From the IMG/VR virus record IMGVR_UViG_3300008217_000108, positions 1 to 22,831 of that record: a DNA stretch of 22,831 bases, one strand, 5' to 3'. The DNA comes from a virus. Position 1 is the first letter of the stretch, and every line of letters begins with the position of its first letter. Shown here one piece after another: positions 258 through 22,831 of this stretch. The notes under the pieces were generated by a model. That model had not been told where the DNA came from. It did no database searches and saw only the letters and a list, made by a program, of their open reading frames with translations. A program made the position numbers and the translations under genes.

Positions 258-1178
258 TTAGCTGACTTGACCACCAAGAACGAAACGCCAGTCTCCATAG
301 CCTAGTGTATAGACCATGTATCCACGGTATTTCGCCTGAACTGTATCGAAGTCTTCTACTCTGGCAAATTCCACAGGAACTTTATCAAACCAGCGTAGGG
401 ACTCTTTCATTTCAGGTTGGTTGCAAATAAACCAGTTATTTGAATCAGTCAGTCGAATCCAGTCCACTACATTGTAGCGGCCAGACTCTGTGTTAACATT
501 ACCTTCTGCTGTGTCTAGACCAGTTTTGGTACGCACAATCTCGTCTGCTCTGTCTCTCAGATCAACTGGAACCAGAAGCATACCAGGTGCGTGACCGTCA
601 ATAGGTTGACCAGCAGCATCCTTAAACTTCCTGAACTGGGTATAAGCACTTCTCAAAGCTGTAGGGCTAAGAGCGGAAGTGACAAGGTTGTCAAAACCAG
701 TTGAAGTACTGACACCAGAACGGGTAGTCGTATGGGAATTAGTACACAACGATACAGCCTCAGAGTGGTTGTAGAAAGTTGTGTCATTTGAGAAGGCATT
801 GTTGAAAATACGGGCTGCATGAACTTGTCGAGTTTGACGTGCTGATCTAGCTAATAGCTTAAATCGGGTATCAATGATACCAAACTGGTCAAACTCCACC
901 AACAGTCTTTCGACTTCTACACCTTTGGCGTATTCTCTGTGTGTTGCAGAGACATCGTACTGTTGATCGGGACCGTCATAATTGACAGCTCCGCTAAATT
1001 CATTATACAGGCCCATTGGGGACAGGGAACTCCAACGCTCAGTCAACTGAGTGGGAGTTTCCATGCTGTAGAACTCGGAAATGCGATCCTGCTCTACAGC
1101 AAATTCACCGTCTGTAATTTCCCGAAACCTTGGATCAAGGACATCAGGAAATCCAGCGGTAGTCAATGGATTAGCCAT
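258..1178 (-). CDS. Major capsid protein, gpT-like HK97 fold
   Basis: This 306-residue protein most likely forms the icosahedral head shell. It reads like the Mu gpT-type/HK97-fold capsid family: an N-terminal segment predicting DPRFREITDGEF, a central region with 'GVEVERLLVEFDQFGIID' and an Arg/Gln-rich helix (ARSARQTRQVHAARIFNNAF), then the P-domain-like 'GHAPGMLLVPVDLRDRADEI' and a C-terminal 'YRGYMVYTLGYGDWRFVLGG'. No cleaved pro-domain is obvious, which fits the separate scaffold candidate upstream. The start ATG (1178-1176) follows AAAGGAGAATC. It sits directly after the head-associated gene at 1202 and before a hairpin. The family call rests on motif recognition and position, not on a database search. 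Confidence 0.75.
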   Translation of the reverse strand: MANPLTTAGFPDVLDPRFREITDGEFAVEQDRISEFYSMETPTQLTERWSSLSPMGLYNEFSGAVNYDGPDQQYDVSATHREYAKGVEVERLLVEFDQFGIIDTRFKLLARSARQTRQVHAARIFNNAFSNDTTFYNHSEAVSLCTNSHTTTRSGVSTSTGFDNLVTSALSPTALRSAYTQFRKFKDAAGQPIDGHAPGMLLVPVDLRDRADEIVRTKTGLDTAEGNVNTESGRYNVVDWIRLTDSNNWFICNQPEMKESLRWFDKVPVEFARVEDFDTVQAKYRGYMVYTLGYGDWRFVLGGQVS

Positions 1179-5355: not shown

Positions 5356-7356
5356 TTAACCTCCGACATCTACTTTCTGTTCTTCTATGTCAGCTTCAGC
5401 AGGCTGCTCTGCTTCTCCCTGTACTTCAGGCGGACCTTGAGGAACACCCTCAGCTCCAGGAGGTGCTTGTTGGCCAGGAACCCCCTGCTGTTGCTGCATT
5501 ACCTGAGCCTGTATCATCTCTTCTGGCCATATAGCCTCAAAGTTCTTTTTGCCTAGTGACTCATACAGTTGTTTGGCTAAAGCTCTTACAGACTGAGGTG
5601 CTTGACCTATATAGGGTATGGACATCATAAACTGGGCCATTTGCATGTTATCTTGCTGTTCCTGCAATCTATTGGGATTAAGCTGGAACTGGAAATCGAC
5701 ATCTTCATAGAATAAGTCACGTGTGATATTGGTCTTACGAAATAAATTAGTTTCCTGATTAAAGAACTTAAACTCCAGCTCTCTTGGAGCGTATCGTTGA
5801 TAGAGGATATGTACTCTGCGCAGCAACTCAGTAAATTGTTCCGCCATCAGGGCTACCATACGTGAAAAAGCGATGTTGGACTGCTGCATGAGCATTGCAG
5901 TGCCTCTGGCTGTTCTGGGTGCATTAGGTACTGAAGCTGCTCTTCCCTGGGTAAAGTCTGTAACTGCGGTGTCTCGTTCTGCCCATGCCTGTACTTGTTG
6001 CAGCACTGAGAGCTGAAAGTCCTTGTTGCCTTGGAATCTTGGGAAGTTCACACCACCTGAGTTTAGGACTGGTACGCCTTCTCCTGGTTTCAGTTGGTTC
6101 ATATCTCCTAATAAGCCAGTGGATGCTGGTTCATAGAAGAAGAACGGCATGTTCTGGAGTGTACCGTAGTCCATCATCTGGTTGAATGTGGAGTTGAGGA
6201 GCCTGTTCAGGTGCTTCATCTTGAATGGAATACCCTGACCAAAGAAGTGTCTGGGGATACGGGTAAAACGGTTCTCTACATGAGGACGTTTACCATCGGG
6301 ATAAAGTCTCGTCAGAGGGATAATACGGGCAATCTTCTTGGTATCTGCAAGATAGACAATCTCAACTTCTTCATGTAAGGCATTACCAATCTGATTTCCT
6401 TCATCATCAAACTCAATATTCTGTTTTTTAGTCTCGCCATCAAAACTCTTGACTTCGCCAGGCAGAGCCATACGCATGTAGAAGATAATAACTTTGGCTG
6501 TTTTAGTCGGATCAGTCTGACTGATCTCATCTTCTTCCCTTATAGCACGTTCTTTACTGGTTAGCTCATGTTCAGACAGCGTAGACCTTAGTTCTTCATC
6601 AATATTGTCATAACCGTGCTGTTTACGGGATCTGAGTTCATCCCAAGTTAAGTGAGTAACTTCATAGTACCAAGGACATTCAGGCCATTGAAGACCTAAG
6701 CCAGACGAAGGAGCTACAAAGAGTCTACCCATATCCGTGATATCTACAGCAGGTCTGTCTAATCTCTGAGAGGTTACTTCTTCAACAACTTTTTCATCAA
6801 AGCCAGCTACAGTCTCTACCTCAACTTCTTCACCCTCCAAAATCTCAAACTTCTCCTTTTTCATTCTAAGGGAGGTTTCTACACGCTGATCTCGAATTAA
6901 TGTCTCATCCCTGTCCCAGCGTACCTTTACAGCAGATGTGCCATCCAGGAGTGTGTCAAACAACCAATCGTTGCCGATTTCCTTCAGATTAAGTATCTTG
7001 GTCCAAACATGGTCAAAATAGAACATCTCCAGCAGCTTGGCTGATTCTACATCTGTTCCTTCGGTGCCAACTACAGTAGGTCTTTGTGCCAGCATAGCAT
7101 CATAAAACTGAGCCAGCAGACTGTCGATAGTGACACGGGTTAAAGGAAGGAATAAGTTGGAAGCACCACGCCAAGGCCAATTCTTGACCTCCTGGTCAGG
7201 CTTGGCTAGGTACATACTCATAAAGGTACTATGTTCGGAATCCCAATCACCTTTGAAGTCTTCAGCCTGTTCAATCATACGGGTTAACTGCTGAATAAGA
7301 TCTTCTTGACGGGATTGAGACAGACTGATCTTAGGGATTTGATTATTTACAGGCAT
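5356..7356 (-). CDS. Portal protein
   Basis: This 666-residue protein probably forms the dodecameric ring at the head vertex through which DNA is packaged. Visible family features are the N-terminal block 'NWPWRGASNLFLPLTRVTIDSLLAQFYDAML', a central 'HFFGQGIPFKMKHLNRLLNSTFNQMMDYGTLQN' helix region typical of portal stems, then 'PNAPRTARGTAMLMQQSNIAFSRMVALM'. The last 50 residues are Gln/Pro/Glu-rich and disordered. Length fits long portals of this type. The start ATG 7356-7354 has no purine-rich SD (upstream is pyrimidine-rich), which is unusual for such a gene. The promoter at 7431-7460 lies just upstream. It heads the morphogenesis operon. Confidence 0.85.
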   Translation of the reverse strand: MPVNNQIPKISLSQSRQEDLIQQLTRMIEQAEDFKGDWDSEHSTFMSMYLAKPDQEVKNWPWRGASNLFLPLTRVTIDSLLAQFYDAMLAQRPTVVGTEGTDVESAKLLEMFYFDHVWTKILNLKEIGNDWLFDTLLDGTSAVKVRWDRDETLIRDQRVETSLRMKKEKFEILEGEEVEVETVAGFDEKVVEEVTSQRLDRPAVDITDMGRLFVAPSSGLGLQWPECPWYYEVTHLTWDELRSRKQHGYDNIDEELRSTLSEHELTSKERAIREEDEISQTDPTKTAKVIIFYMRMALPGEVKSFDGETKKQNIEFDDEGNQIGNALHEEVEIVYLADTKKIARIIPLTRLYPDGKRPHVENRFTRIPRHFFGQGIPFKMKHLNRLLNSTFNQMMDYGTLQNMPFFFYEPASTGLLGDMNQLKPGEGVPVLNSGGVNFPRFQGNKDFQLSVLQQVQAWAERDTAVTDFTQGRAASVPNAPRTARGTAMLMQQSNIAFSRMVALMAEQFTELLRRVHILYQRYAPRELEFKFFNQETNLFRKTNITRDLFYEDVDFQFQLNPNRLQEQQDNMQMAQFMMSIPYIGQAPQSVRALAKQLYESLGKKNFEAIWPEEMIQAQVMQQQQGVPGQQAPPGAEGVPQGPPEVQGEAEQPAEADIEEQKVDVGG

Positions 7357-7787: not shown

Positions 7788-8041
7788 CGGGAATTACCTC
7801 GTTATAAAAAATTATTTTGGGAAATTTTTTAAATTTAGAGTAAGGGACCCCTAATTTTTACACAGACGGAATGGACTTGTCAAGTTTTTTTAGAATCCAG
7901 AATTTTTTGGAAAATTTTAGTTGTTTTTATGTCTTTAAGTAACACTGTAAATTGGACACATTAAAATAAGAATCATTATTGATGTTGTTTTTTTATTATT
8001 GTTGACTAAATCGATAGATTAAGTAGATTATTAATATAAAC

Positions 8042-8162
8042 TGTCTCTTTTTTACAACACTGTTGCATAAATGAGACACCCCACCCTATCTTGTTGATAA
8101 CAAAAGACTTACCCCTCCACAGACCTGTCTCAAAAAGGACACACTGTTGCATAAATGAGACA
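8042..8162. repeat. Two 37-bp dyads of an 18-bp element
   Basis: The right arm TGTTGCATAAATGAGACA occurs identically at 8061-8078 and 8145-8162, inside a 23-bp perfect direct repeat (8057-8079, 8141-8163). Each is preceded, across a single central C (8060, 8144), by an inverted left arm starting TGTCTC: 8042-8059 (15 of 18 complementary) and 8126-8143 (12 of 18). Another inverted copy, TGTCTCACTTTTACAACA, lies at 8307-8324 (15 of 18) without a partner. The identical arm length and centre in both dyads suggest binding of a dimeric protein. Confidence 0.75.
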
Positions 8163-8228
8163 CAATACTTTACATAATGCAGATTTAGTCGTGCCTAACG
8201 TTTAGTCATGGCTAAATTCGCCATTAAC

Positions 8229-8294
8229 ATCCAATTTATTGGATTTATCCAATTATCTGGATTCAAAATAATGATTTAATCCAATTTTTTGGAT
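8229..8294. repeat. Three 16-bp palindromes ATCCAATTNNNTGGAT
   Basis: Copies at 8229-8244 (ATCCAATTTATTGGAT), 8247-8262 (ATCCAATTATCTGGAT) and 8279-8294 (ATCCAATTTTTTGGAT). Each is an inverted repeat ATCCA-N6-TGGAT; start-to-start distances are 18 and 32 bp. They look like an operator cluster or iterons. A weaker relative (ATCCAGAATTTTTTGGA) lies near 7893. Confidence 0.7.
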
Positions 8295-8306
8295 CGCTGA
8301 CGCTGG

Positions 8307-8324
8307 TGTCTCACTTTTACAACA
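8307..8324. repeat. Solitary inverted copy of the TGTCTC element
   Basis: TGTCTCACTTTTACAACA matches the reverse complement of the 8061-8078 arm at 15 of 18 positions, including both ends (TGTCTC and CAACA). It sits 12 bp beyond the third ATCCA palindrome, tying the two repeat families to one regulatory region. Confidence 0.6.
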
Positions 8325-8495
8325 CAACCACGTCAAGCACTCAAAATCAACGCCTGTGCAGTCTTAGGTATAAAATGAGGTACTACTATGCTTTAGAGGC
8401 TAACACGTCACCACGGGCAAATATGAGCGATTTAGGGGTAACTGTTTGGTAACTAAGTAGGCTAATCTGTCGTGGTATTTACTGGTTTTTTGGAC

Positions 8496-8524
8496 AAAAA
8501 AAAGAGGAGTTTGTTAGACTCCTC
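8496..8524 (-). terminator. Intrinsic terminator of the 8551-8868 gene
   Basis: GAGGAGT (8504-8510) pairs with ACTCCTC (8518-8524), loop 7 nt. On the leftward transcript it is followed by eight U (complement of 8496-8503). It is preceded by the 14-bp block TTTTCCTGGATTGT (8528-8541) that also precedes the next terminator at 8961-8989. Confidence 0.85.
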
Positions 8525-8550
8525 AGTTTTTCCTGGATTGTTAGGTTAGT

Positions 8551-8868
8551 TTAGTAATCCGCGATTGTATCTTTTACTCCGATCGCCTCATCTAAAAACC
8601 CATGCTCTCCGAAGTGCTTGTCATAGGTGCTATAATCCATTTTGTACAAATCTCCCGATACCCAGTCTGTACTTATAGCTGTTAGGTGTTGGACATAATA
8701 ATTATTGCCTTTTGAGTAGTGAATATCGGTGACTGAATATTCTGTTTCCGAAGATTCAGAACTCATTCTTCGAAGATCCTCTTCGGTGAATTTGTCCTGA
8801 ACTACTCCAATGACCCGACATCCTCGTAAGACTCTGGGCCTGTTTCCCTGTTTAATCTCGATGTACAT
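8551..8868 (-). CDS. Hypothetical early protein (leftward cassette 1)
   Basis: A 105-residue soluble protein starts at ATG 8868-8866 behind AAAGGAG (spacer about 8). The N-terminus is MYIEIKQGNRPRVLRGCRVIGVV, followed by a Ser/Glu-rich linker (RRMSSESSETEYSVTDIHY) and an acidic C-terminus (GFLDEAIGVKDTIADY). I do not recognise a family. It is a self-contained unit: promoter 8911-8940, conserved leader and terminator 8496-8524. An in-frame ATG at 8904, at the predicted transcript start, would add 12 residues (MLNNHQTKGENK). A small early phage protein of this type often targets a host function, but nothing in the sequence says which. Confidence 0.65.
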   Translation of the reverse strand: MYIEIKQGNRPRVLRGCRVIGVVQDKFTEEDLRRMSSESSETEYSVTDIHYSKGNNYYVQHLTAISTDWVSGDLYKMDYSTYDKHFGEHGFLDEAIGVKDTIADY

Positions 8869-8910
8869 TTTGTTCTCTCCTTTTGTTTGGTGATTGTTTA
8901 ACATGACTAC

Positions 8911-8940
8911 ATTATAATTGAGAATATTATTAGTTGTCAA
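8911..8940 (-). promoter_or_regulatory. Early promoter of cassette 1
   Basis: TTGACA (8940-8935), 18-bp spacer, TATAAT (8916-8911) on the minus strand. Six bases later comes ATGTTAAAC (from 8904), so transcription should start at or next to this ATG. The same arrangement recurs at the other early promoters of the window. Confidence 0.75.
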
Positions 8941-8960
8941 GTAAAATAACAAATAAAAAC

Positions 8961-8989
8961 AAAAAAAAAGGGAGGGTTTTATCCCTCCC
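8961..8989 (-). terminator. Intrinsic terminator of the 9014-9316 gene
   Basis: GGGAGGG (8970-8976) pairs with CCCTCCC (8983-8989), loop 6 nt, followed on the leftward transcript by nine U (complement of 8961-8969). The 14-bp block TTTTCCTGGATTGT (8992-9005) lies between the stop codon and the stem. The promoter of cassette 1 starts 21 bp further on. Confidence 0.9.
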
Positions 8990-9013
8990 AATTTTCCTGG
9001 ATTGTCAGTTGGT

Positions 9014-9316
9014 TTATGTCTCCTTTTCTAACAATCCTTGTTCTTGGCCAAAATTGCTAGTCCAAATATCTAGATTGTCTGCGCCATCTTTCAAAATTGC
9101 ACGTTTGATAATTTTCCCGTCAACTTTGAAAGTGTAGATCCTTTGCTTTTTTTCCTTGTCGTGGTAATGCGTCAAGTTCCATTCCAAAAAGTCGTGGGAA
9201 TTGCTAGAACTTGTTCCTACCATTACCTGACAATCTGAGTGTTTTCTGACACCATAGGACTTGCTGCTACTGTAGATACAGGACTTAATTTTATTCCAAA
9301 TAGGATACTGCCTCAT
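9014..9316 (-). CDS. Hypothetical early protein (leftward cassette 2)
   Basis: A 100-residue protein starts at ATG 9316-9314 behind AAAAGGAGATAAGAAA. It is basic at the N-terminus (MRQYPIWNKIKSCIYSSSKSYGVRK), has a Ser-rich segment (VMVGTSSSNSHDF), then a beta-prone stretch (LEWNLTHYHDKEKKQRIYTFKVDGKIIKRAIL) and an acidic tail. No known motif is apparent. Cassette 2 shares the promoter plan, a leader of the form TTAACTAATCACCAAACAAA, and the pre-terminator block with cassette 1, so the flanks are probably duplicated although the proteins differ. An in-frame ATG at 9352 would add 12 residues (MLTNHQTKGDKK). Confidence 0.65.
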   Translation of the reverse strand: MRQYPIWNKIKSCIYSSSKSYGVRKHSDCQVMVGTSSSNSHDFLEWNLTHYHDKEKKQRIYTFKVDGKIIKRAILKDGADNLDIWTSNFGQEQGLLEKET

Positions 9317-9359
9317 TTTCTTATCTCCTTTTGTTTGGTGATTAGTTAACATTAAAATC

Positions 9360-9389
9360 ATTGTAATTGATTTTCTATTTTGTTGTCAA
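9360..9389 (-). promoter_or_regulatory. Early promoter of cassette 2
   Basis: TTGACA (9389-9384), 18-bp spacer, TACAAT (9365-9360) on the minus strand; 7 nt later ATGTTAAC (from 9352). The -35 box lies inside the last codons of the upstream gene (9375-9776), so read-through from cassette 3 can also reach this gene. Confidence 0.7.
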
Positions 9390-9776
9390 GTCTCTTAGAT
9401 CAATTTCCACTGTAAAAGGATTCTCAATATGATAGACCTGGGCAACTTGAAAAATATAGTTGTCCATTCTGTCATGGTGCAAGTCCCTACCTTTTCTAGT
9501 TTGGATGGTTCCTTCTATTGTAGCTCCGAACACATCAGGACTAGGACTGCCTGCTGACTGATGCAAGGCGTCCAGGAACTTGGAATAGCTGCCCCATGCT
9601 GGAATTTCTGGATTGTCTGGAGTTCCAAATTGTCTGGACAGAATCTCAAACGCTTCTGGTTCTGTTAGAATAAACTCAAGTGTTTTGTAAGTTCTTGTGT
9701 GAATCTCTCCGTTTTTCCAGTCCCATTTGGCCAACTGTAAAATTTTTTGGTATGCTTCCAGTTCTTTGTTTTCCAT
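9375..9776 (-). CDS. Hypothetical early protein (leftward cassette 3)
   Basis: A 133-residue protein starts at ATG 9776-9774 behind AAAGGAGTTAAGACA. The N-terminal half is helical and charged (NKELEAYQKILQLAKWDWKNGEIHTRTYKTLEFILTEPEAFEILSRQFG). The middle is Pro/Ser-rich (NPEIPAWGSY, AGSPSPDVFG), and the C-terminus is beta-prone (ENPFTVEIDLRDLTTK). HHDR near residue 104 is the only catalytic-looking cluster, and I do not assign it. An in-frame ATG at 9809, at the predicted transcript start, would add 11 residues (MLTTKTKGVKT). There is no terminator directly after it, so it is likely co-transcribed with cassette 2. Confidence 0.65.
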   Translation of the reverse strand: MENKELEAYQKILQLAKWDWKNGEIHTRTYKTLEFILTEPEAFEILSRQFGTPDNPEIPAWGSYSKFLDALHQSAGSPSPDVFGATIEGTIQTRKGRDLHHDRMDNYIFQVAQVYHIENPFTVEIDLRDLTTK

Positions 9777-9816
9777 TGTCTTAACTCCTTTTGTTTTGGT
9801 GGTTAACATTACAGCA

Positions 9817-9845
9817 ATTCTACTGAATTAATATAATAAATGCAA
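9817..9845 (-). promoter_or_regulatory. Early promoter of cassette 3
   Basis: TTGCAT (9845-9840), 17-bp spacer, TAGAAT (9822-9817) on the minus strand, then 7 nt and ATGTTAACC (from 9809). The boxes are weaker than in the neighbouring promoters, but the geometry and the conserved start region are the same. Confidence 0.6.
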
Positions 9846-10146
9846 GCAATAATACAATTATTTTAAATAAAAATAAATTAATCAAATTAGCTAAAATTCA
9901 CACTCTAACCTATTGATTACAAAGGAGTTATACGAATTTCCACGATCTCCGAGTACCCCTAGTGCTACTATCAGTTCTTACCTTGCGTTGCGTCACAGCG
10001 ATATTTAGGCCCATAGCGTGGAGACACTGTATATATTCATTATATTCGTATAATTATACTATGATTTTTATTGTATTTTTTTACTTGCGTTTTGTTTTTA
10101 GTTGTGATTTATTATAAGAGAGTGAAAAAGTAAATTTGTAGGATTG

Positions 10147-10229
10147 CGTCAATTCTTAATGTTTTACTTTAACTGTTGACGGTTTTGATAATTTCGTCAA
10201 CTCTTAAGAAACTACATTAACTGTTGACG
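10147..10229. repeat. Two 35-bp units bounded by CGTCAA...TTGACG
   Basis: Unit 1 (10147-10181) and unit 2 (10195-10229) have the same length and start with CGTCAA and end with TTAACTGTTGACG. About 28 of 35 positions agree; differences cluster in the middle. Each unit is an inverted repeat at its ends, and the start-to-start distance is 48 bp. This looks like a pair of protein-binding sites. Confidence 0.7.
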
Positions 10230-10256
10230 AAAAGGTAAAAAGTTATCAGAATCTCT

Positions 10257-10326
10257 GGAAACAATACATCCAAAATTAAAACTTGGGAAACAATACGAAC
10301 CAGATCAGAAATCTGGGAAACAATAC
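10257..10326 (+). repeat. Three direct repeats GGAAACAATAC (iteron-like)
   Basis: GGAAACAATAC starts at 10257, 10286 and 10316; the last two extend to GGGAAACAATACGA. Spacing is 29 and 30 bp, close to three helical turns, as expected for sites read from one face of DNA. It follows directly on the CGTCAA dyads. Confidence 0.7.
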
Positions 10327-10355
10327 GAGTTAGATTTAATTTTAGACAGACAGGC

Positions 10356-10384
10356 AAAGAAAAAGGGTAGCATGGTAGCTACCC
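10356..10384 (-). terminator. Intrinsic terminator of the SSB-tail unit
   Basis: GGGTAGC (10365-10371) pairs with GCTACCC (10378-10384), loop ATGGTA. The leftward transcript continues UUUUUCUUU. It closes the leftward unit that starts at the promoter 10861-10889. Confidence 0.8.
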
Positions 10385-10416
10385 CTTCTCAGTTTGGTAG
10401 TGTTTACTTTTTCAGC

Positions 10417-10527
10417 TCACACACTGGCTACATGATAGCCCAGGTACAGGATCATAGTGGTCAAGACAATCACAGTAAACCAGTCTGTCCTGTTTTTTGT
10501 TTGTCTGTAGTTTAAGTAGTCTTTCAT
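10417..10527 (-). CDS. 36-residue membrane mini-protein
   Basis: A short reading frame starts at ATG 10527-10525 with AGGAGG six bases upstream. The N-terminus is basic and polar (MKDYLNYRQTKNRTD), followed by one membrane helix (WFTVIVLTTMILYLGYHVA) and a short tail SV. It starts 16 bp after the stop of the SSB-tail gene and is followed by the terminator at 10356-10384, so the two genes form one transcript. Size and topology suit a regulator of a membrane protein, an exclusion protein or a toxin-like peptide. No family is recognised. Confidence 0.6.
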   Translation of the reverse strand: MKDYLNYRQTKNRTDWFTVIVLTTMILYLGYHVASV

Positions 10528-10542
10528 CTTATCCTCCTACCC

Positions 10543-10824
10543 CTAGAAAGGGATATCGTTCTCTTCATCTATTGATTGAACCTGAACATCCTCAAGTTGA
10601 AAATCTGCATAGTCGCTATCAATGACTTCCTTCTCAACTTTAGGCTGCACTGGCTGGTCAGATGAATACTGGACAACATTATGGTCAGTAATATCTTTTT
10701 CATTCCAGGATCTTACTATTGTCTGATCCTGTCCCATACCAGTGTCAATGTAAAAAACCTTGCCACCGATATTGACGTATACTGCCTGACCTGACTCAAC
10801 ATTAACTCTTACTCCGTTTCTCAT
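10543..10824 (-). CDS. Small protein with SSB-like C-terminal tail (DIPF)
   Basis: The product has 93 residues from ATG 10824-10822, with AAGGAGG about 9 bases upstream; an ATG 30 bp earlier (10854) sits at the predicted transcript start. The N-terminal half is beta-prone (GVRVNVESGQAVYVNIGGKVFYID). A long acidic, low-complexity linker follows, and the last eight residues are DEENDIPF. Bacterial SSB ends in an almost identical acidic-DIPF peptide that recruits RecQ, PriA, ExoI, RecO and the polymerase chi subunit. The body is too short and does not look like a full SSB OB-fold. It may recruit or block host SSB partners. The tail is seen directly; the role is inferred. Confidence 0.7.
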   Translation of the reverse strand: MRNGVRVNVESGQAVYVNIGGKVFYIDTGMGQDQTIVRSWNEKDITDHNVVQYSSDQPVQPKVEKEVIDSDYADFQLEDVQVQSIDEENDIPF

Positions 10825-14401: not shown

Positions 14402-15511
14402 ATGATTTCTAAGCTAATCAGTTCAAGATCAGCGTATGCAACCTACCTTGTCAGCCAACGTCAGTATTACATTGACTATCAATTTGCTGGCAGAGGCATT
14501 ACACCTAAAAGTATAAACCCCAATCTTCAAATCGGTATCTACTGCCACGCTGTCTGTGGTGGTGTGATGTCTGGAAAGAGTGAGGACTCCCAACAGGCAG
14601 AGCAGACTGAGATCTGGAATGAGTTAGCATCAACTAGAGGTTTCGATTCTCTGCATCCCCCAGAAATGTTACTGGCTCTTGCACAGGGACTAAGCTCTGC
14701 ATGGATTAGAACTAGATTTAAAGAAATTGAAAAATCTTATGAGATCTTGGCAGTTGAAAAACCTAGACTGCTGAGTATTCAAGATTCCGAATTTGAATTG
14801 TTGGTCCCTACCAGACTCGATGCAGAATTACGAAGTCTCAATTCCGACAAAAACTACCATGCACTTGAGATAAAAACTACCAGCTCTAAAAGATATTTCG
14901 ACAAATACAAATATGATATCCAACCACTGCAACACCTCTGGGCCATAGAAGATGCTTATGGTCAAGGATCTTGCCACTCCATCCTTATGGAGTTCTTATA
15001 TAAGGGCTACGGCAATATGCAAACTGGTGGAACCTGGTACAGTCCGTTTGTCAGAGGTTATGTGAAAATCGGGGTAGAGCCTTATGACTCCACTCAATAT
15101 TCAACTAACGGAAAGAAGTATGGCAATCGCAAGGATTGGAACGACTTCGATGTCTGGCAAAGATTTACACAGGATGAATGGTACGCCAAAGCAGGTAAAG
15201 TCCTGGATGCTCAGATTCTCAACATGTCTGTAGTCAGAGATCGAAGGGATCTTCCAGTGTACCAACACCAAATGTTCCATGCTCACAAACGCATAGCAGA
15301 GGGGCTACAAAAATTAGAGGATGCAACAAGTGAGAATGAGAAAGCAGAAATTTTGGGAATTTTTTTTCCTCTGGCCTACCATATGTTTGACCACCACCTG
15401 ATTAATTTCTCACCAGAGCAGGCTCTAGATAGTGGAGATTATATATTCAGGGAACCACACCACGAACTGGAAAAAGAATTTCTAGCTAAAAAGAGTTTTA
15501 ATACCCTGTAA
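14402..15511 (+). CDS. RecB-like PD-(D/E)XK exonuclease
   Basis: This 369-residue protein has the order of motifs of the RecB C-terminal nuclease (PDDEXK_1) family: an N-terminal 'SSRSAYATYLVSQRQYYIDYQF' resembling the S-x-x-x-x-Y/F-x-x-C-P-x-x-Y-Y entry of the family but without its cysteine, then H49 in GIYCHA, D140 in TRLDAEL, E156-x-K158 in ALEIKTT, and Q174/Q177 in IQPLQHLW. These are the expected metal-binding and QxxxY-type residues. It probably processes DNA ends for recombination or replication, together with the Sak4-like gene. ATG 14402 has no SD; a TATAAT at 14391-14396 would place the transcript start at or just beside this codon, that is a leaderless mRNA. The 3' end overlaps terL by 14 bp. 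Confidence 0.75.
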   Translation: MISKLISSRSAYATYLVSQRQYYIDYQFAGRGITPKSINPNLQIGIYCHAVCGGVMSGKSEDSQQAEQTEIWNELASTRGFDSLHPPEMLLALAQGLSSAWIRTRFKEIEKSYEILAVEKPRLLSIQDSEFELLVPTRLDAELRSLNSDKNYHALEIKTTSSKRYFDKYKYDIQPLQHLWAIEDAYGQGSCHSILMEFLYKGYGNMQTGGTWYSPFVRGYVKIGVEPYDSTQYSTNGKKYGNRKDWNDFDVWQRFTQDEWYAKAGKVLDAQILNMSVVRDRRDLPVYQHQMFHAHKRIAEGLQKLEDATSENEKAEILGIFFPLAYHMFDHHLINFSPEQALDSGDYIFREPHHELEKEFLAKKSFNTL

Positions 15512-17300
15512 CTGGATCAATAGAATCTCCACCCTCACGCTCAGAGAAAGGTGATAGACTATCTGATCTTCTAGGAGTCAGAGGTGCTGGGTAACTCTTT
15601 ACTTGTTGAAGTGCCAAGGCAAGTGCGAATACTCTGTCATCGTGGTATCCCCCAGATCCCTCTACCTTACCCCTGTTGTTATACTGTAATCTTTGCAGCT
15701 CTCGTATAGTTTCCTTGTCATGGATAATGATACTACGCTCATTGATGGCAGTTTTAAGATCTCCTAATAAAATAGGTCTGCTTGTAATGCTGGTTTTCCA
15801 ACCAATTTGCCTACTGCGTTTAGGGCGGTCTTTCAAAAAATCTGTCCTATGGTATAACATGTGTCTGGGGTAATTGTTACCAAGATAGGTACACAGTAAA
15901 GTACCATAGCCCGATACCTCTGGGCAGATAGCACAACCTGGCCCTGCATTGGAATAATAATGTCCCAATAAAGCCACCATCTCAGAGAAGGGTTCTTCAG
16001 GGATGTGACCTGCAAGGATAGCAACCTGTCTACATCCATCATCCAGATCCAGTACACAGGCTACTGATCTATCAGGATCTCTGGAAGAACTTCCACCAGG
16101 CAGGATTCCTTCTGCTGTATCTACTCCCATAGCATAGCGATGCGTCTTTACAGGATCTCTGAAGATTGAGAGGTCTTCTGATTTATCTGATATAAAACGA
16201 ATGTCTCTGTTCCAGCGTTCATCTCGAATCAGATAACCATTTCTTGCGTCTTCAGTAGGTTGTAGATTTAGCTTGGATAGATCTAGGAAGTTTCTACCTG
16301 ATGAGACAAAGGCTTCCTCTGGAGTAGCTGGAAATTCCTGTCTGCGGATATCGATATCTCCCTGACATTTCTGTCGAAGACAGTAGCGATACCAGTTGAG
16401 TTGTTCCAGACTTACTCGATAACGCTCCATCAGGTTCTGTTCTGATTCATCTAAGGTTTGAAAAAATCTGGATTTTTCTGCATCATCATCAAATGGCTTG
16501 GAGTAGTCTGGATCATCAAACACACTAATAAAATAAGGAAGGTAGCCATTAAAGTTCTCGCTGTCTAGGATGTCGATTTCTGGAAAAATATCTCCATCAC
16601 GCTTAACCCAGTTTATCTTACAATACTTATCAGCGTTCTCCCACATAGGATGGAACAGACTGTCGTATCCATTTGCGGTAGATTCTAATATCACTGTGGT
16701 GTCGGGGCCGTCACCGATAGCCTGAAACAGACTGACAGCAACATCGCTACCCTTGTGCCACTTGCTTACTTCTGATCCATGAATGAAGTGAGGAGTCAAT
16801 CCTGTTCCAGCCTGTACGTTATTGGCAGTCTCTACCATAATCATACCTTCACCTTCAAAGGTCATCTTGCGTACTGAGGACTGAGATTTTTTTGGTTTAC
16901 TGAGCGTGTACCTAGACTCAAACCTTGAGGCGATACTATAAATAAATTCTGCTGTAGGGCGATTGTGGGCAATGACCATTCCATCAATCCCTCTTAACCA
17001 ACACTCCTGTAGCATCAATCCTTCAATGAGGGTACTGATTCCAGTTTTCCTTGCCTTCAAAATGATTACCCTGCAAGGTCTGTTGTTCTCCTGGCTCCAT
17101 TCATAGAGCTTGAGCAGCTTGATCTGAGACTGTTTGAGGGGATTCATTGGGCGTATCTGACCATCTTTATCTTTTATAATAAAGTGGTTAGTCAGCCAAT
17201 GCTGTCTGTCCTGACGACACAGGGACTCTTCAATGAAGGTGGGATCTTTAGCTTGACCTGAATATTGTTGGGATAGATTATAGTAGCTTTTGTCGCTCAT
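15498..17300 (-). CDS. terL: Terminase large subunit
   Basis: This 600-residue packaging motor shows both expected modules. The ATPase has Walker A KARKTGIST (residues 82-90), a Walker B/catalytic-Glu segment HFIHGSE (171-177) and coupling motif ESTANG (206-211). The nuclease has GVDTAEG (392-398, first acidic residue D394), CPEVSGYG (459-466) and HDDRVFALALAL (553-564, D554/D555). Length and motif order are standard for TerL. ATG 17300-17298 overlaps the previous stop (ATGA), so it is translationally coupled to the 17297 gene. It converges with the nuclease gene, with a 14-bp overlap of the 3' ends. Confidence 0.93.
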   Translation of the reverse strand: MSDKSYYNLSQQYSGQAKDPTFIEESLCRQDRQHWLTNHFIIKDKDGQIRPMNPLKQSQIKLLKLYEWSQENNRPCRVIILKARKTGISTLIEGLMLQECWLRGIDGMVIAHNRPTAEFIYSIASRFESRYTLSKPKKSQSSVRKMTFEGEGMIMVETANNVQAGTGLTPHFIHGSEVSKWHKGSDVAVSLFQAIGDGPDTTVILESTANGYDSLFHPMWENADKYCKINWVKRDGDIFPEIDILDSENFNGYLPYFISVFDDPDYSKPFDDDAEKSRFFQTLDESEQNLMERYRVSLEQLNWYRYCLRQKCQGDIDIRRQEFPATPEEAFVSSGRNFLDLSKLNLQPTEDARNGYLIRDERWNRDIRFISDKSEDLSIFRDPVKTHRYAMGVDTAEGILPGGSSSRDPDRSVACVLDLDDGCRQVAILAGHIPEEPFSEMVALLGHYYSNAGPGCAICPEVSGYGTLLCTYLGNNYPRHMLYHRTDFLKDRPKRSRQIGWKTSITSRPILLGDLKTAINERSIIIHDKETIRELQRLQYNNRGKVEGSGGYHDDRVFALALALQQVKSYPAPLTPRRSDSLSPFSEREGGDSIDPVTGY

Positions 17301-18362: not shown

Positions 18363-18391
18363 ACTATACAACAAAATGACTCATTTGTCAA
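18363..18391 (-). promoter_or_regulatory. Leftward promoter of the terminase operon
   Basis: TTGACA (18391-18386), 17-bp spacer, TATAGT (18368-18363) on the minus strand. It is back to back with the rightward promoter at 18407-18435; the two -35 boxes are 15 bp apart and form an inverted pair (TTGTCAA...TTGACAA), so shared regulation is likely. Confidence 0.75.
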
Positions 18392-18406
18392 TAGAAAAAT
18401 TGGGGG

Positions 18407-18435
18407 TTGACAATAGTAATGTAGGATATTAAAAT
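18407..18435 (+). promoter_or_regulatory. Rightward promoter of the recombination operon
   Basis: TTGACA (18407-18412), 17-bp spacer, TAAAAT (18430-18435), then 7 nt and ATGGAGGATG (from 18443). As at the early promoters near 9-11 kb, the transcript should start at or beside an in-frame ATG. Confidence 0.7.
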
Positions 18436-18454
18436 TAAAAACATGGAGGATGAA

Positions 18455-19222
18455 ATGGAGGCAGTAAATATGAGTGTAGATGCAAGCAACTTATTAAAGG
18501 GGACAGGCTTCAGACCAGCAAGTCAGATTAAAGTTCGTCAAAGATTAATCATCAATGTGCAGGGAAAGGAAGACACAGGTAAGACTCACTTCTTACTTAA
18601 CTGTCCTTACCCTTTAGCTTATTTTGATTTTGACCACAATGCAGAGAGCCTACTCTCCAAGCCAGAATTTGCTGATAAAGAAATTATGATTTCTCCTTAT
18701 TATTTCAGCAAGCCCACAGGGAAATCATCTGATGCAGATAAGATTCTCAAGGAGGCAAGTTCATTGTGGGACAGGTTTTCTTCAGAGTTCAGGCAAGCTC
18801 TCGATGAGTGTGCCACTGTAGCATTGGATACATCTGCTCAAGTTTGGGAAATGTTAAGGATGTCAAGGTTCGGCAAACACAACGTCCTTCCCCATCATTA
18901 TGGAGCATTGAACGCTGAATTCAGCAGTACAATATTTGACCAAGCCAAGCAGAGTAACTGTAATCTTATACTGAGTTCCCCTCTTGCAAAGCAGTTTGTC
19001 AATGATAAGGAAACTGGACTTTGGGTGAGACAGGGGTGGTCACAATTAGATTACAAAGTTCAGTATTCTCTGGAACTGGAAAAAGTCAAGGTTGGTCCAA
19101 ACAAAGGCAAGTTCCAAGGCAAGATATTCAAGTTCAAACCAGACCCTGATGTAATAGGGCAGGCAATAATCAACCCTAGTTTCAACGATATTTTTGAGAG
19201 GGCCTTTCCGAAAGGCGTTTAA
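18455..19222 (+). CDS. Sak4-like RecA-fold recombination ATPase
   Basis: The product has 255 residues from ATG 18455, with GGAGG five bases upstream; ATG 18470 (GGAGG eight bases upstream) and ATG 18443 (transcript start) are in-frame alternatives. Motifs: Walker A GKEDTGKTHF about 30 residues after the start, the strand LAYFDFDHN with acidic residues, Walker B ATVALDT, and a KxxKxGPNKGKFQGKIFKFKPDP C-terminal beta hairpin. This is the compact AAA_24/Sak4 type of single-strand annealing or recombinase-mediator ATPase of phages. Such genes usually travel with an SSB, and the next gene fits that. It probably works with the RecB-like nuclease and the Hjc-like resolvase. Confidence 0.75.
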   Translation: MEAVNMSVDASNLLKGTGFRPASQIKVRQRLIINVQGKEDTGKTHFLLNCPYPLAYFDFDHNAESLLSKPEFADKEIMISPYYFSKPTGKSSDADKILKEASSLWDRFSSEFRQALDECATVALDTSAQVWEMLRMSRFGKHNVLPHHYGALNAEFSSTIFDQAKQSNCNLILSSPLAKQFVNDKETGLWVRQGWSQLDYKVQYSLELEKVKVGPNKGKFQGKIFKFKPDPDVIGQAIINPSFNDIFERAFPKGV

Positions 19223-19251: not shown

Positions 19252-19881
19252 ATGTTTGATCCAAGTACCTTTTCATCTCAAGAGGTAAAATTTACAGAGA
19301 ATTGGGAAGACAATCGTTTTCGTCTACCCACTCCTGGAAGTGAGTTTGTTGGAAGCATTGCTTCTATAGACGATGGTAATGAGTATCAAAGCAAGGACGG
19401 TAAGACCTACATGTGGATTAGGATGACACTTCAGTCTACAGATCCACCAGGAACTACAGCGTCAGCTTTCTTAAATAATCAACCTCGTCCTTTTGGCAAC
19501 AAGGCTTCTGGGATAGAGGATTTGATTCAGGCTTCTGGTATTGACTTTGATGCCAACTCCACTCATCAGGGTATTGCTGAGACTGTAGACCAAATCTGGA
19601 AGGAGCAAATTCCATTCAAATTTGATATTACATGGTCAGGCAGTTGCTCACAAATCTATAAAAATACTTTGATGGAGCTGACTGAAACAACCTCGTTTGA
19701 TGATGCCACAAACGTAGCAGACAAGCAGCAGAGGAAAGAAGCCAATAAAGCTGCTGAATTTAAAGCCAACAAATTCAAAGTAAATGGTGAGTATCAAGCT
19801 ACTGTCGAATGTGAGCAGACAAATACACCAGTTCGAGCTAGAATTGAAGTCAGAAATTTTCTAGCTCATAACAATTCTTAG
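19252..19881 (+). CDS. Putative single-stranded DNA-binding protein
   Basis: A 209-residue protein starts at ATG 19252 behind AAAGGAGGTAAAT. The N-terminal part is beta-prone with aromatic residues (WEDNRFRLPTPGSEFVGSIASIDDGNEYQSKDGKTYMWIRMTLQS). A middle region contains FKFDITWSGS, and the C-terminus is a basic helix (QQRKEANKAAEFKANKFKVNG) followed by a short beta segment. Together with its position right after a Sak4-like ATPase this suits an OB-type ssDNA-binding or DUF669-like protein. It has no acidic DIPF tail; that tail is on a different gene (10543-10824). The family is inferred from context and composition. Confidence 0.5.
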   Translation: MFDPSTFSSQEVKFTENWEDNRFRLPTPGSEFVGSIASIDDGNEYQSKDGKTYMWIRMTLQSTDPPGTTASAFLNNQPRPFGNKASGIEDLIQASGIDFDANSTHQGIAETVDQIWKEQIPFKFDITWSGSCSQIYKNTLMELTETTSFDDATNVADKQQRKEANKAAEFKANKFKVNGEYQATVECEQTNTPVRARIEVRNFLAHNNS

Positions 19882-19889
19882 GAGGTATT

Positions 19890-20135
19890 ATGCAAGCAGA
19901 AGATTTATTTAGACCGCTCGAACCCCACGCACTAAAGCCATTATTGGAGAAGCACAATATCAGACAGGCTCAAGCTGCTGATAAACTTGGTGTATCTCTG
20001 GCCTATCTCAATATGATCTTGAACGGACATACCCGTCCTAGTCAGGAACTTGATGATGCTATGGACGAATTGGTTGAGAAGATGAGTCCTATGGAACCAA
20101 TTCTAAGTGGTCAGAATGGAGATGGGTCTGCCTAG
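19890..20135 (+). CDS. XRE-type helix-turn-helix regulator
   Basis: An 81-residue protein starts at ATG 19890 behind TAGGAGGTAT. Residues about 15-55 (ALKPLLEKHNIRQAQAADKLGVSLAYLNMILNGHTRPSQELDDAM) are a classical Cro/C1-type HTH: 'QAQAADKLGVS' followed by the recognition helix 'LAYLNMILNG'. The tail is acidic. It probably binds an operator in this genome, perhaps one of the palindromes described here. Its stop overlaps the next GTG (TAGTG). Confidence 0.75.
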   Translation: MQAEDLFRPLEPHALKPLLEKHNIRQAQAADKLGVSLAYLNMILNGHTRPSQELDDAMDELVEKMSPMEPILSGQNGDGSA

Positions 20136-20443
20136 TGGGAAAGCTGAGTAGAAACAGAGGACGAGCTTTTGAGTATGCTGTGGCTAAGTTCATGGGAAAA
20201 GGGACTAGACGCAGCATATTCCGTCCTCACGATACAGAGGGGCATCCTCTCTTTGTATTTGAATGTAAGAAAAGAAAAGAACACGCTAAGACTTTAATGA
20301 AGTGGTGGAAGCAAGCAGTCAAGGCCACCCAAGAAGATAAACTACCAGCATTGGTTATGGCAGAATACCAACAGCCAGTTAAAAATGCCCTGTGTGTAAT
20401 TCGCCTTGAAGACCTTCGAGATCTTATTGATAAGGCATTATGA
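20135..20443 (+). CDS. Hjc-like Holliday junction resolvase
   Basis: A 102-residue protein starts at GTG 20135, overlapping the previous stop. It has the PD-(D/E)XK pattern of small archaeal-type/phage resolvases: RNRGRAFEYAVAKF with E13, D33 in RPHDTEGHP, and E43-x-K45 in FVFECKKRK, then a helix (HAKTLMKWWKQAVKA) and a final strand-helix (CVIRLEDLRDLI). It likely resolves branched recombination or replication intermediates before packaging. Size and motif spacing match the family. Related VRR-NUC or nicking enzymes are the alternatives. Confidence 0.7.
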   Translation: MGKLSRNRGRAFEYAVAKFMGKGTRRSIFRPHDTEGHPLFVFECKKRKEHAKTLMKWWKQAVKATQEDKLPALVMAEYQQPVKNALCVIRLEDLRDLIDKAL

Positions 20444-21567
20444 AAAAACCAGATACCTGTCAAAGCTGTGCGTTGGAGAAAAAGGGAATATCATTTACCC
20501 TGCCTGATGGATCTGGTAAGAATGGAGTCATGGTTATTGGTGAAGGTCCAGGTAAGACAGAAGCCATGCAGGGTGTCCCATTTGTAGGAAAAGCTGGAGT
20601 ACAACTTAACCGCTCTATCTCACGACAAAGACTAGAGCGTGAGGACTTCATATTATATAATCTGATCCAGTGCCAACCACCTAACAACTGGCTGGATAAA
20701 GCACCGTGGCAACGGGCATCCATAGATCAGTGTCGTACACATCTATATCCAGTCATCCAGAAATTCAAGCCCAAGGTTATTTCACTTCAAGGAGCATTAC
20801 CCATGAAGGAGCTGTTAGGTATAACAGGACTACTGCCCTCAGCCAAAAATAATTCTCCAAAGCGTGGTTATGTTTATGATGTGGAGATTGGTGGACATAA
20901 GTGTCTGGCTGTTCCTACCATACATCCTTCCTTTGTTATCCAGGGGAACCAGAATTATGCAGGGGTTCATGTCTTTGATTTATCTAAGGCAGTCAAGGTT
21001 GCAGAGAATGGTGAAGAGCCTGATGACTGTAACTACATCCTGACCCCTGCCTATAATGATGTAAAGGATTATATTAGAGAAGCCAAACAGTATGCTCAAA
21101 GAGAGGGATCTATCCTAGTCTCTGACATTGAAACCTCAGATTCGCCAAATCAGGATGAGTCTGAATATGGTACTCTTGTCTCCAGCGATATTTCATGTGT
21201 GAGCTTTTCATTTAAGGAAGGCCATGCCATTACCATTCCCTTTCATGCAGGAACACAGTTGCTAATCCAAGAACTGTTTGATATTCAATTTGACTACCTG
21301 GCATTTTGGAATGTAGATTTTGATGTCCCACGACTGAGCAGTAAGGGGATAATCTTTAAAGCCAATAGAATTATTGACAGTATGCTGGCATGGCATTGGC
21401 TACAGAGTGATGTACCTAAAGGTTTAGGATTTGTCAGCTCCTTCTTCTGTCCCTTTCGTGAGTGGAAAAGTCTGAGTGAGTCTCAACCTGAGTTCTATTC
21501 CTGTCGGGATGCAGATGCTACTCTGCGGAATACAGTTGCAATTAAGAGGTTAATTCAAACAACATGA
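20440..21567 (+). CDS. Uracil-DNA glycosylase (family 4-like) fused to a 3'-5' exonuclease
   Basis: The 375-residue protein has two domains. Residues 1-185 are a Fe-S uracil-DNA glycosylase: C7-x2-C10 and C78...C98 as cluster ligands, GEGPGKTE (34-41) with GVPFVGKAG (45-53), and the HPS motif (162-164). Residues about 195-375 are a DnaQ/PolA-type exonuclease: Exo I D229-I-E231, Exo II NVDFD (291-295) and Exo III Y353-x3-D357. All expected catalytic residues are present in both. UDG and exonuclease domains joined to family A polymerase occur in phages; here the protein stops after the exonuclease and no polymerase follows in the window. It overlaps its neighbours by 4 bp on each side. Confidence 0.8.
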   Translation: MKKPDTCQSCALEKKGISFTLPDGSGKNGVMVIGEGPGKTEAMQGVPFVGKAGVQLNRSISRQRLEREDFILYNLIQCQPPNNWLDKAPWQRASIDQCRTHLYPVIQKFKPKVISLQGALPMKELLGITGLLPSAKNNSPKRGYVYDVEIGGHKCLAVPTIHPSFVIQGNQNYAGVHVFDLSKAVKVAENGEEPDDCNYILTPAYNDVKDYIREAKQYAQREGSILVSDIETSDSPNQDESEYGTLVSSDISCVSFSFKEGHAITIPFHAGTQLLIQELFDIQFDYLAFWNVDFDVPRLSSKGIIFKANRIIDSMLAWHWLQSDVPKGLGFVSSFFCPFREWKSLSESQPEFYSCRDADATLRNTVAIKRLIQTT

Positions 21568-22076
21568 AACTATATAAAGGTTATAAACACATTGGCCCCT
21601 TTGGAAGAAAAGCACCTACAGCAGCTATCTACGCTCAGACAAGTTACCCTGTGTTACGACTGCCTTCAATATGTTCTGAGGGAAGAATAAGTCTTTATTT
21701 TGATGAAGAAACATTTGACATTCACGCCAAAATTCACAGTAAGGGGGCGTTAAAGATCTTCAGTCGTCCTCATATGGGAAATGGAGTAAGACACCTTGTC
21801 TGTTTGCAGGGATTTCTAGTATTAAACGCCTTGGACTATGAAGATGTTAAAGGTGTGTATTCAGTTCAGTGGGTAAAACAGCCTAAAAGTTTTGTTGTCC
21901 TATATAAAACCAGACGAAAAGAATTGATTGTAAGTAAGCATGATAAAAGGAAAGTTACTATCTGCTTATCTGCTAAAGAGAAAGAAAGTTGGGATCATAG
22001 GCGTGGGCAATTATCCATGTCTGCATTTGTACGTTCCGCTGTTAATCGTTACCTGGAAGATCGACATACTTATTAA
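21564..22076 (+). CDS. Hypothetical protein with ribbon-helix-helix-like C-terminus
   Basis: A 170-residue protein starts at ATG 21564, overlapping the UDG-exo stop (ATGA). Residues 1-120 are beta-prone with repeated aromatic strands (GRISLYFDEETFDIHAKIH, GVYSVQWVKQPKSFVVLYKTRRKE) and no known motif. The last 45 residues (KRKVTICLSAKEKESWDHRRGQLSMSAFVRSAVNRYLED) read as strand-helix-helix, as in Arc/CopG-type DNA-binding domains. It may be a regulator of the rightward operon. The family of the N-terminal part is unknown. Confidence 0.5.
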   Translation: MKLYKGYKHIGPFGRKAPTAAIYAQTSYPVLRLPSICSEGRISLYFDEETFDIHAKIHSKGALKIFSRPHMGNGVRHLVCLQGFLVLNALDYEDVKGVYSVQWVKQPKSFVVLYKTRRKELIVSKHDKRKVTICLSAKEKESWDHRRGQLSMSAFVRSAVNRYLEDRHTY

Positions 22077-22088
22077 AGGAGGCTATCT

Positions 22089-22595
22089 ATGTTAACTACC
22101 CCAATGGCTAAAAGTATCAACAACCAAATAGGCGATGAGTTTAATGCAGCTTATCTGTACCTGTCCATGTCAGTTTACTGTGATTCTATTGGATTTCGTG
22201 GGTTTGCCAAGTGGATGAGAAAGCAGAGTGAGGAAGAAATTGGGCATGGAATGAAATTGATTGACTACATGAACGATCAATTTAGTCGAGTAGAACTCCA
22301 GCAGATTTATGAGCCTGAGAAAACTTTCGGGAGTCTGACTGATATGATGGAACAGGCTTTACTGCATGAACAGGAAATCAGTGATGGAATCTATCTGCTG
22401 TATGGTCAGGCAGGAGAAGAAAATGATTACACCACTCAAAATTTTCTGGATTGGTTTATTGCAGAGCAACTGGAAGAAGAAAAAACAGTAGGGGATATTG
22501 TAGAGAAGTTGAGAATATTTGGCGAACACCACGACTCTGATCCACAGAAGACTTCACTTTATTTAATAGATCAGGAACTAGGTCAACGAGAATAA
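22089..22595 (+). CDS. ftn: Ferritin, FtnA-like, with complete ferroxidase site
   Basis: This 168-residue non-haem ferritin stores iron by oxidising Fe(II) in a 24-subunit shell. All ferroxidase residues align with E. coli FtnA without gaps in numbering: E17, Y24, E50, H53 (QSEEEIGH), E94 (LLHEQE), E126, Q127, E129 and E130 (AEQLEE). Length and four-helix pattern are normal. The SD AAAGGAGG before ATG 22089 is strong. It lies inside a phage recombination operon, 12 bp after the previous gene. Ferritin is very unusual cargo for a phage; it could sequester iron, protect from Fenton damage, or be host-derived. No sign of decay is visible. Confidence 0.88.
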   Translation: MLTTPMAKSINNQIGDEFNAAYLYLSMSVYCDSIGFRGFAKWMRKQSEEEIGHGMKLIDYMNDQFSRVELQQIYEPEKTFGSLTDMMEQALLHEQEISDGIYLLYGQAGEENDYTTQNFLDWFIAEQLEEEKTVGDIVEKLRIFGEHHDSDPQKTSLYLIDQELGQRE

Positions 22596-22610: not shown

Positions 22611-22831
22611 ATGACATATAACGCAAACAAACTAGCTTCAAAGGTAAGCACTGGAGAAGAAATAAGATACTTACGCAATTATCTTGACCGCAATAAACTT
22701 GAGATGAGCTTATTGTCAGATGCTATTGATGAGCTAGAAGGAGTTATAGCGGAAGCGGATCATTACTTAACAAATGGAATAGCTTACCTTGGGGTTAAAT
22801 CACTCAAGAAAAAACTAGAGGAAGAACTAAC
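22611..22831 (+). CDS. Partial hypothetical protein (right edge)
   Basis: ATG 22611 follows AAAGGAGACAAAA, 15 bp after the ferritin stop. The 73 visible residues are charged and mostly helical: MTYNANKLASKVSTGEEIRY, then LRNYLDRNKLEMSLLSDAIDE and a coiled-coil-like end (VKSLKKKLEEEL). The gene runs off the window. No domain can be assigned. Confidence 0.6.
   Translation, partial: MTYNANKLASKVSTGEEIRYLRNYLDRNKLEMSLLSDAIDELEGVIAEADHYLTNGIAYLGVKSLKKKLEEEL

Follow-up and report, generated by a model that had tools for sequence, protein, structure and literature searches.

The window analysed here, a stretch of DNA of 22,831 nucleotides, is a 22.8-kb IMG/VR virus record that represents a partial genome. 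The packaging and head genes are carried on its minus strand, while the plus strand bears an operon of at least eight genes, which begins at position 18443 and in which the gaps between consecutive genes range from -4 to +29 bp (Table 1). The genes of this operon appear in the order Sak4-like ATPase, ORF without match, HTH protein, PDDEXK nuclease, UDG-exonuclease, a second ORF without match, ferritin and an ORF truncated by the contig end; the ferritin, the seventh gene, is thus found together with replication and recombination genes. The initial annotation had placed it in a recombination operon, a fair description, given the Sak4-like protein (a weak match), the HTH protein, the PDDEXK nuclease and the UDG-exonuclease that precede it. 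Two sigma-70-like promoter matches (11/12 each) are located back-to-back at 18363-18435, between the minus-strand genes on the small-terminase side and the plus-strand operon. The window contains no tRNA, and no Fur box was found in it. Among the window proteins searched, neither an integrase or repressor nor any other ROS gene (catalase, SOD, Dps) was recognised.

Table 1. Features of the window and of the portal-linked ferritin contigs used for comparison.
Feature	Position	Strand	Basis or remark
Major capsid protein	258..1178	-	PHROGs phrog_371, 4e-14
Portal protein	5356..7356	-	PHROGs phrog_1216, 3e-21
Terminase large subunit	15498..17300	-	PHROGs
Sigma-70-like promoter match (11/12), before the Sak4-like gene	18407-18435		
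Sak4-like / AAA_24 ATPase, first operon gene	18443..19222	+	Sak4-like match weak, 3e-4
Operon protein without family match	19252..19881	+	No Pfam match; 53% homologue in G002
Small HTH protein	19890..20135	+	PF01381
PDDEXK nuclease	20135..20443	+	PF24608, 2e-8
Family-4 uracil-DNA glycosylase (UDG) fused to the exonuclease part of a phage DNA polymerase	20440..21567	+	Family matches
170-aa protein, overlapping the UDG-exonuclease gene by 4 bp	21564..22076	+	No Pfam or PHROGs match
Shine-Dalgarno sequence of the ferritin gene, AAAGGAGG	22077..22085	+	Sequence
FtnA-type (non-heme) ferritin, 168 aa	22089..22595	+	PF00210; FtnA alignment; AlphaFold model; dN/dS
Six-residue insertion (approximately HHDSDP), turn between helices D and E	22524..22544	+	Alignments; pLDDT about 70
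Downstream ORF with its own Shine-Dalgarno sequence, cut by the contig end	22611..22831	+	
Portal-linked ferritins (other contigs)			L024-L028, L073-L085; PHROG 16594 for L026
Example of portal-linked ferritin, L026	Ferritin 7995-8537, portal 8537-10660		

The ferritin ORF starts with ATG, 12 bp past the end of the preceding ORF, and both this spacing and the Shine-Dalgarno sequence reported previously were confirmed in the sequence. In the HMM search that had been proposed as a check of the assignment, PF00210 matched at E=3.4e-42 over positions 2-140 of its 142; its score of 144 bits far exceeds the cut-off of 24.5 and excludes a chance match. The nearest NCBIfam model was that of the non-heme ferritin PRK10304, with 97 bits, under its equivalog cut-off of 178. 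In an alignment with the FtnA sequence of E. coli MG1655, which is free of gaps up to residue 146, all of the residues singled out in the initial annotation (E17, Y24, E50, H53, E94, E126, Q127, E129 and E130) fall in the same columns, and E49 is likewise identical. These ten residues are kept in all of the cellular ferritins sampled. The intra-subunit diiron ferroxidase set (E17, E50, H53, E94 and E130, together with Q127 and Y24) is therefore complete, and the PF00210 match, the FtnA columns and the phage neighbourhood bear out the claim that the phage encodes a ferritin whose ferroxidase centre is intact.

The AlphaFold model of the protein (mean pLDDT 89.5) contains five helices, H4-33, H37-64, H83-110, H114-145 and H153-165, which correspond to a four-helix bundle and a short helix E. 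Its counterparts in the PDB are the ferritins of Archaeoglobus, Pyrococcus and Thermotoga, with TM scores of about 0.93 and 39-43% identity. A bacterioferritin was considered and rejected, as residues 49-53, read from the E. coli FtnA alignment, are EEIGH and contain no methionine; we take Met52, beside the ferroxidase E/H, to be the haem-ligand position that marks bacterioferritins. On account of the residues, the fold match and the missing haem methionine, the protein is assigned from its sequence to the FtnA type, with sites A, B and C predicted to be intact. It shares with the ferritins of P. furiosus, A. fulgidus, T. maritima and E. coli the fold, the length, ferroxidase sites A and B, the site-C glutamates and Tyr24. 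It differs from the cellular FtnA proteins in being encoded by a phage, in its identity of at most 52% to any cellular ferritin sampled and in a six-residue insertion before helix E. The insertion, whose exact bounds depend on the alignment, occurs only in the window and in a nearly identical contig (G001), while all other aligned ferritins, including that of the diverged contig G002, lack it. In an assembled cage the insertion would be situated near the fourfold-axis side.

The neighbourhood of the ferritin was searched for in other phage contigs, as the initial annotation had proposed, and the same gene order was recovered in both of these contigs. G001 is 99.9% identical to the window over 18.5 kb, the ferritin included. 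G002, which derives from another metagenome, has its genes in the same order, and its aligned blocks are about 64-83% identical to the window in DNA sequence; the order UDG-exonuclease, ORF without match, ferritin and ORF without match is common to the two phages. Within the family of the window phage, the ferritin was detected in two diverged phage genomes only (G000/G001 and G002). The two ferritins are 86% identical at the protein level, with dN of 0.07, dS of 0.71 and omega of about 0.10 (NG86), while the UDG is 73% identical and the product of 21564-22076, directly upstream of the ferritin, 50%. The latter gene had been described as a phage gene, which is supported by its position in the operon and by its homologue in G002, but not by any family match. 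The GC content of the ferritin gene (0.40) and its GC3 (0.38) are inside the range of the other phage genes.

These comparisons bear on whether a bacterial ferritin was simply misassembled onto a phage contig. Such an artefact could be suspected from the fact that the window, G001 and G002 all stop about 0.2 kb past the gene; it is nevertheless scarcely credible, since a diverged phage from another metagenome has the same order, with homologues on either side of the ferritin, and since the composition matches that of the phage and dN/dS is about 0.1 across the two phages. A chimera of the right end with a bacterial chromosome is likewise very unlikely, because of the synteny with G002 on both sides, the existence of G001, the phage-range GC and GC3 and the low dN/dS. 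The ferritin lies inside a phage genome, is conserved among phages and is under selection, as befits a phage auxiliary gene, and its 86% identity and dN/dS of about 0.1 between two phages indicate that it is functional phage cargo under purifying selection. Over the last ∼120 bases (22712-22831) the window and G002 agree completely, in contrast to a difference of ∼20% elsewhere, and the two contigs terminate at the same base. This identity suggests recombination or a common segment that broke the assembly, and the shared end resembles a break in the assembly graph where related strains meet. A search with the last 44 bases for sequence beyond the contig end matched two known contigs only, both of which end there.

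The closest cellular matches to the ferritin, at 46-52% identity, were observed in genomes of the KSB1 phylum, Bacteroidota and Verrucomicrobiota; the cellular sampling comprised these three phyla, picked from the matches of a first scan, together with E. coli and one S. aureus-like sequence. Phylogeny, from which the initial annotation had hoped to derive the donor lineage, did not provide one: a tree built from 53 ferritins unites the two phage sequences in a clade (100/100) at the end of a long stem (0.94), for which no sister group received support. The phage-like base composition and the lack of a sampled cellular relative above 52% identity indicate, at the level of sequence, that the acquisition was not recent from any sampled lineage. 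A search for the host, carried out without a positive control, revealed no relatives of the portal protein in 82 KSB1-phylum genomes, and INPHARED contained no close relatives of the phage.

The ferritin gene is part of a tightly packed operon with 4-bp overlaps, beside the UDG-exonuclease, and the packaging and head genes are on the opposite strand. This arrangement makes it more likely that the protein detoxifies or buffers iron inside the cell than that it loads the virion. We consider it moderately probable that this catalytically complete ferritin oxidises and stores Fe2+ during infection and limits free iron and Fenton damage. According to this proposal, the ferritin of this tailed phage would be made together with the replication and recombination proteins, and thus during DNA synthesis, as its place in the replication operon implies. 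It would assemble into the usual 24-subunit cage in the infected cell, where the ferroxidase centre would oxidise Fe2+ and the product would be stored in the cage. Free iron and Fenton chemistry would then be held down during the degradation of host structures and DNA and the copying of phage DNA, and the phage would presumably gain through less iron damage to its DNA. Counting against the proposal are the detection of the gene in just two diverged genomes of this phage family, the missing Fur box, the lack of a second recognised ROS gene in the set of window proteins searched and the partial state of the genome.

A different use of the iron is suggested by the UDG-exonuclease, two genes upstream in the same operon. 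Its residues C7, C10, C78 and C98 occupy the [4Fe-4S] cysteine positions of family-4 UDGs, and all four cysteines are present in both the window and G002. The ferritin may accordingly serve as a reservoir, which stores and releases iron for phage enzymes such as this predicted [4Fe-4S] protein or others encoded in the unsequenced part of the genome. This role is unlikely, as a single enzyme has only a small need for iron, and other phages (L086 and L088) encode Fe-S UDG-polymerase fusions in surroundings where no ferritin was detected. The UDG-exonuclease ORF itself comprises 375 aa; a polymerase domain was recognised neither in it nor elsewhere on the contig. In the related contig L088, the UDG, exonuclease and polymerase constitute a single 1290-aa protein, and the annotation of the Manatee Spring phage (MW202554) divides the polymerase between two consecutive genes. 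The polymerase of the window phage also appears to be split; the missing domain may be encoded downstream, in which case the ferritin would lie inside the split polymerase locus. A more specific proposal, that the ferritin belongs to the replication machinery as a dedicated component which guards, or supplies iron to, an Fe-S UDG/polymerase complex of the same operon, is a long shot; if true, the two would form a phage module for iron handling and DNA repair.

Benefit to the host, rather than to phage replication, was proposed for phage ROS-defence genes, ferritin among them, in PMC6802176. Expression in a lysogen or a long infection would help the host to survive iron or oxidative stress. For the window phage this is rather improbable, since the window proteins searched included no recognisable integrase or repressor, and the ferritin is inside the replication operon, not behind a promoter of its own. 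The cage could also withhold iron from the host, a competing phage or a defence enzyme, and hinder iron-dependent defences; a catalytically complete ferritin that shares an operon with replication genes is compatible with this purely inferential and very improbable role, for which no defence target was identified.

Iron loading of the particle, the Ferrojan Horse idea invoked in the initial annotation, would have the ferritin or its iron incorporated into the virion, where it would aid adsorption via siderophore receptors. This literature hypothesis, for which ferritin genes beside the portal gene of unrelated phages can be cited, is unsupported for the window phage and highly unlikely to apply to it. 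A ferritin of this kind would be encoded with tail or head genes, while that of the window accompanies replication genes, and terminase, portal and capsid are encoded on the other strand. Moreover, the single experimental test of the idea found in the literature for phages in which a ferritin is predicted was negative: Vi01-like phages infected mutants in TonB and FeoB as usual and showed no dependence on either protein (PMC10892097).

The ferritins beside portal genes were revealed by an IMG/VR profile search and form a separate phage clade (support 100/94) in the 53-ferritin tree. A dedicated search yielded 13 portal-linked contigs, some of them near-duplicates, and one additional contig (L023) without a portal match. 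In 13 of the 13, the portal gene is located within about 0.4 kb downstream of the ferritin, with stop/start overlap in several cases, and a terminase is encoded upstream wherever the contigs cover this region. The portals of L026, L025 and L024 are fused to a Mu-F domain (Pfam). These ferritins resemble that of the window in belonging to the FtnA fold family and in retaining sites A and B; in contrast, their E49 is replaced by Gly, and they are portal-adjacent and fall in a clade of their own. No counterpart was detected in INPHARED beyond weak matches to unverified Staphylococcus records. The portal-linked proteins are candidates for a role linked to the virion or head assembly, and a virion-linked ferritin is more plausible for their arrangement than for that of the window. 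They are perhaps also the more novel of the two.

Ferritin-like proteins of phages have been reported previously, such that the window ferritin is less unprecedented than it might seem. Freshwater phages carry ferritin among their ROS-defence genes, as described in PMC6802176; the likeness to the window concerns ferritin as phage cargo tied to oxidative stress. In gut phages (Gratiaviridae), Dps and Mn-catalase are recurrent and were likewise interpreted as control of iron and ROS in infection (PMC8008677), and Dps of Lactobacillus phages is placed near replication genes (PMC6669764). These proteins share with the window ferritin the ferritin-like superfamily and the proposed function. Dps, however, forms a 12-mer with an inter-subunit site, while the window ferritin has a complete FtnA site within the helix bundle. 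Two BFVD entries are similar in fold but belong to different phages: A0A8D9C9X5, a "putative bacterial non-heme ferritin" of an uncultured marine phage (TM 0.92, 31% identity), and A0A8S5Q7U4 (TM 0.81, 21% identity). The FtnA type remains rare in characterised phages, since tblastn of INPHARED with the ferritin returned only six unannotated records. These six GenBank "phage" records are probably bacterial and were not accepted as phage evidence; the four that were opened are labelled UNVERIFIED and are mostly short.

The control of iron by phages has so far been discussed mostly from surveys and annotations, to which synteny, selection and operon evidence are added here. A catalytically complete ferritin that two diverged phages retain under purifying selection, each at the same point of its replication operon, represents a clean candidate with which to examine iron detoxification or buffering by phages, and it separates this idea from that of virion loading.

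Elsewhere in the window, at 8866-9796 and 10143-10335, two kinds of repeats were observed: repeated leader-like stretches (39-nt and 23-nt repeats) before three small minus-strand genes, and tandem repeats of 27-39 nt in AT-rich non-coding DNA, which possibly represents a regulatory or origin region.
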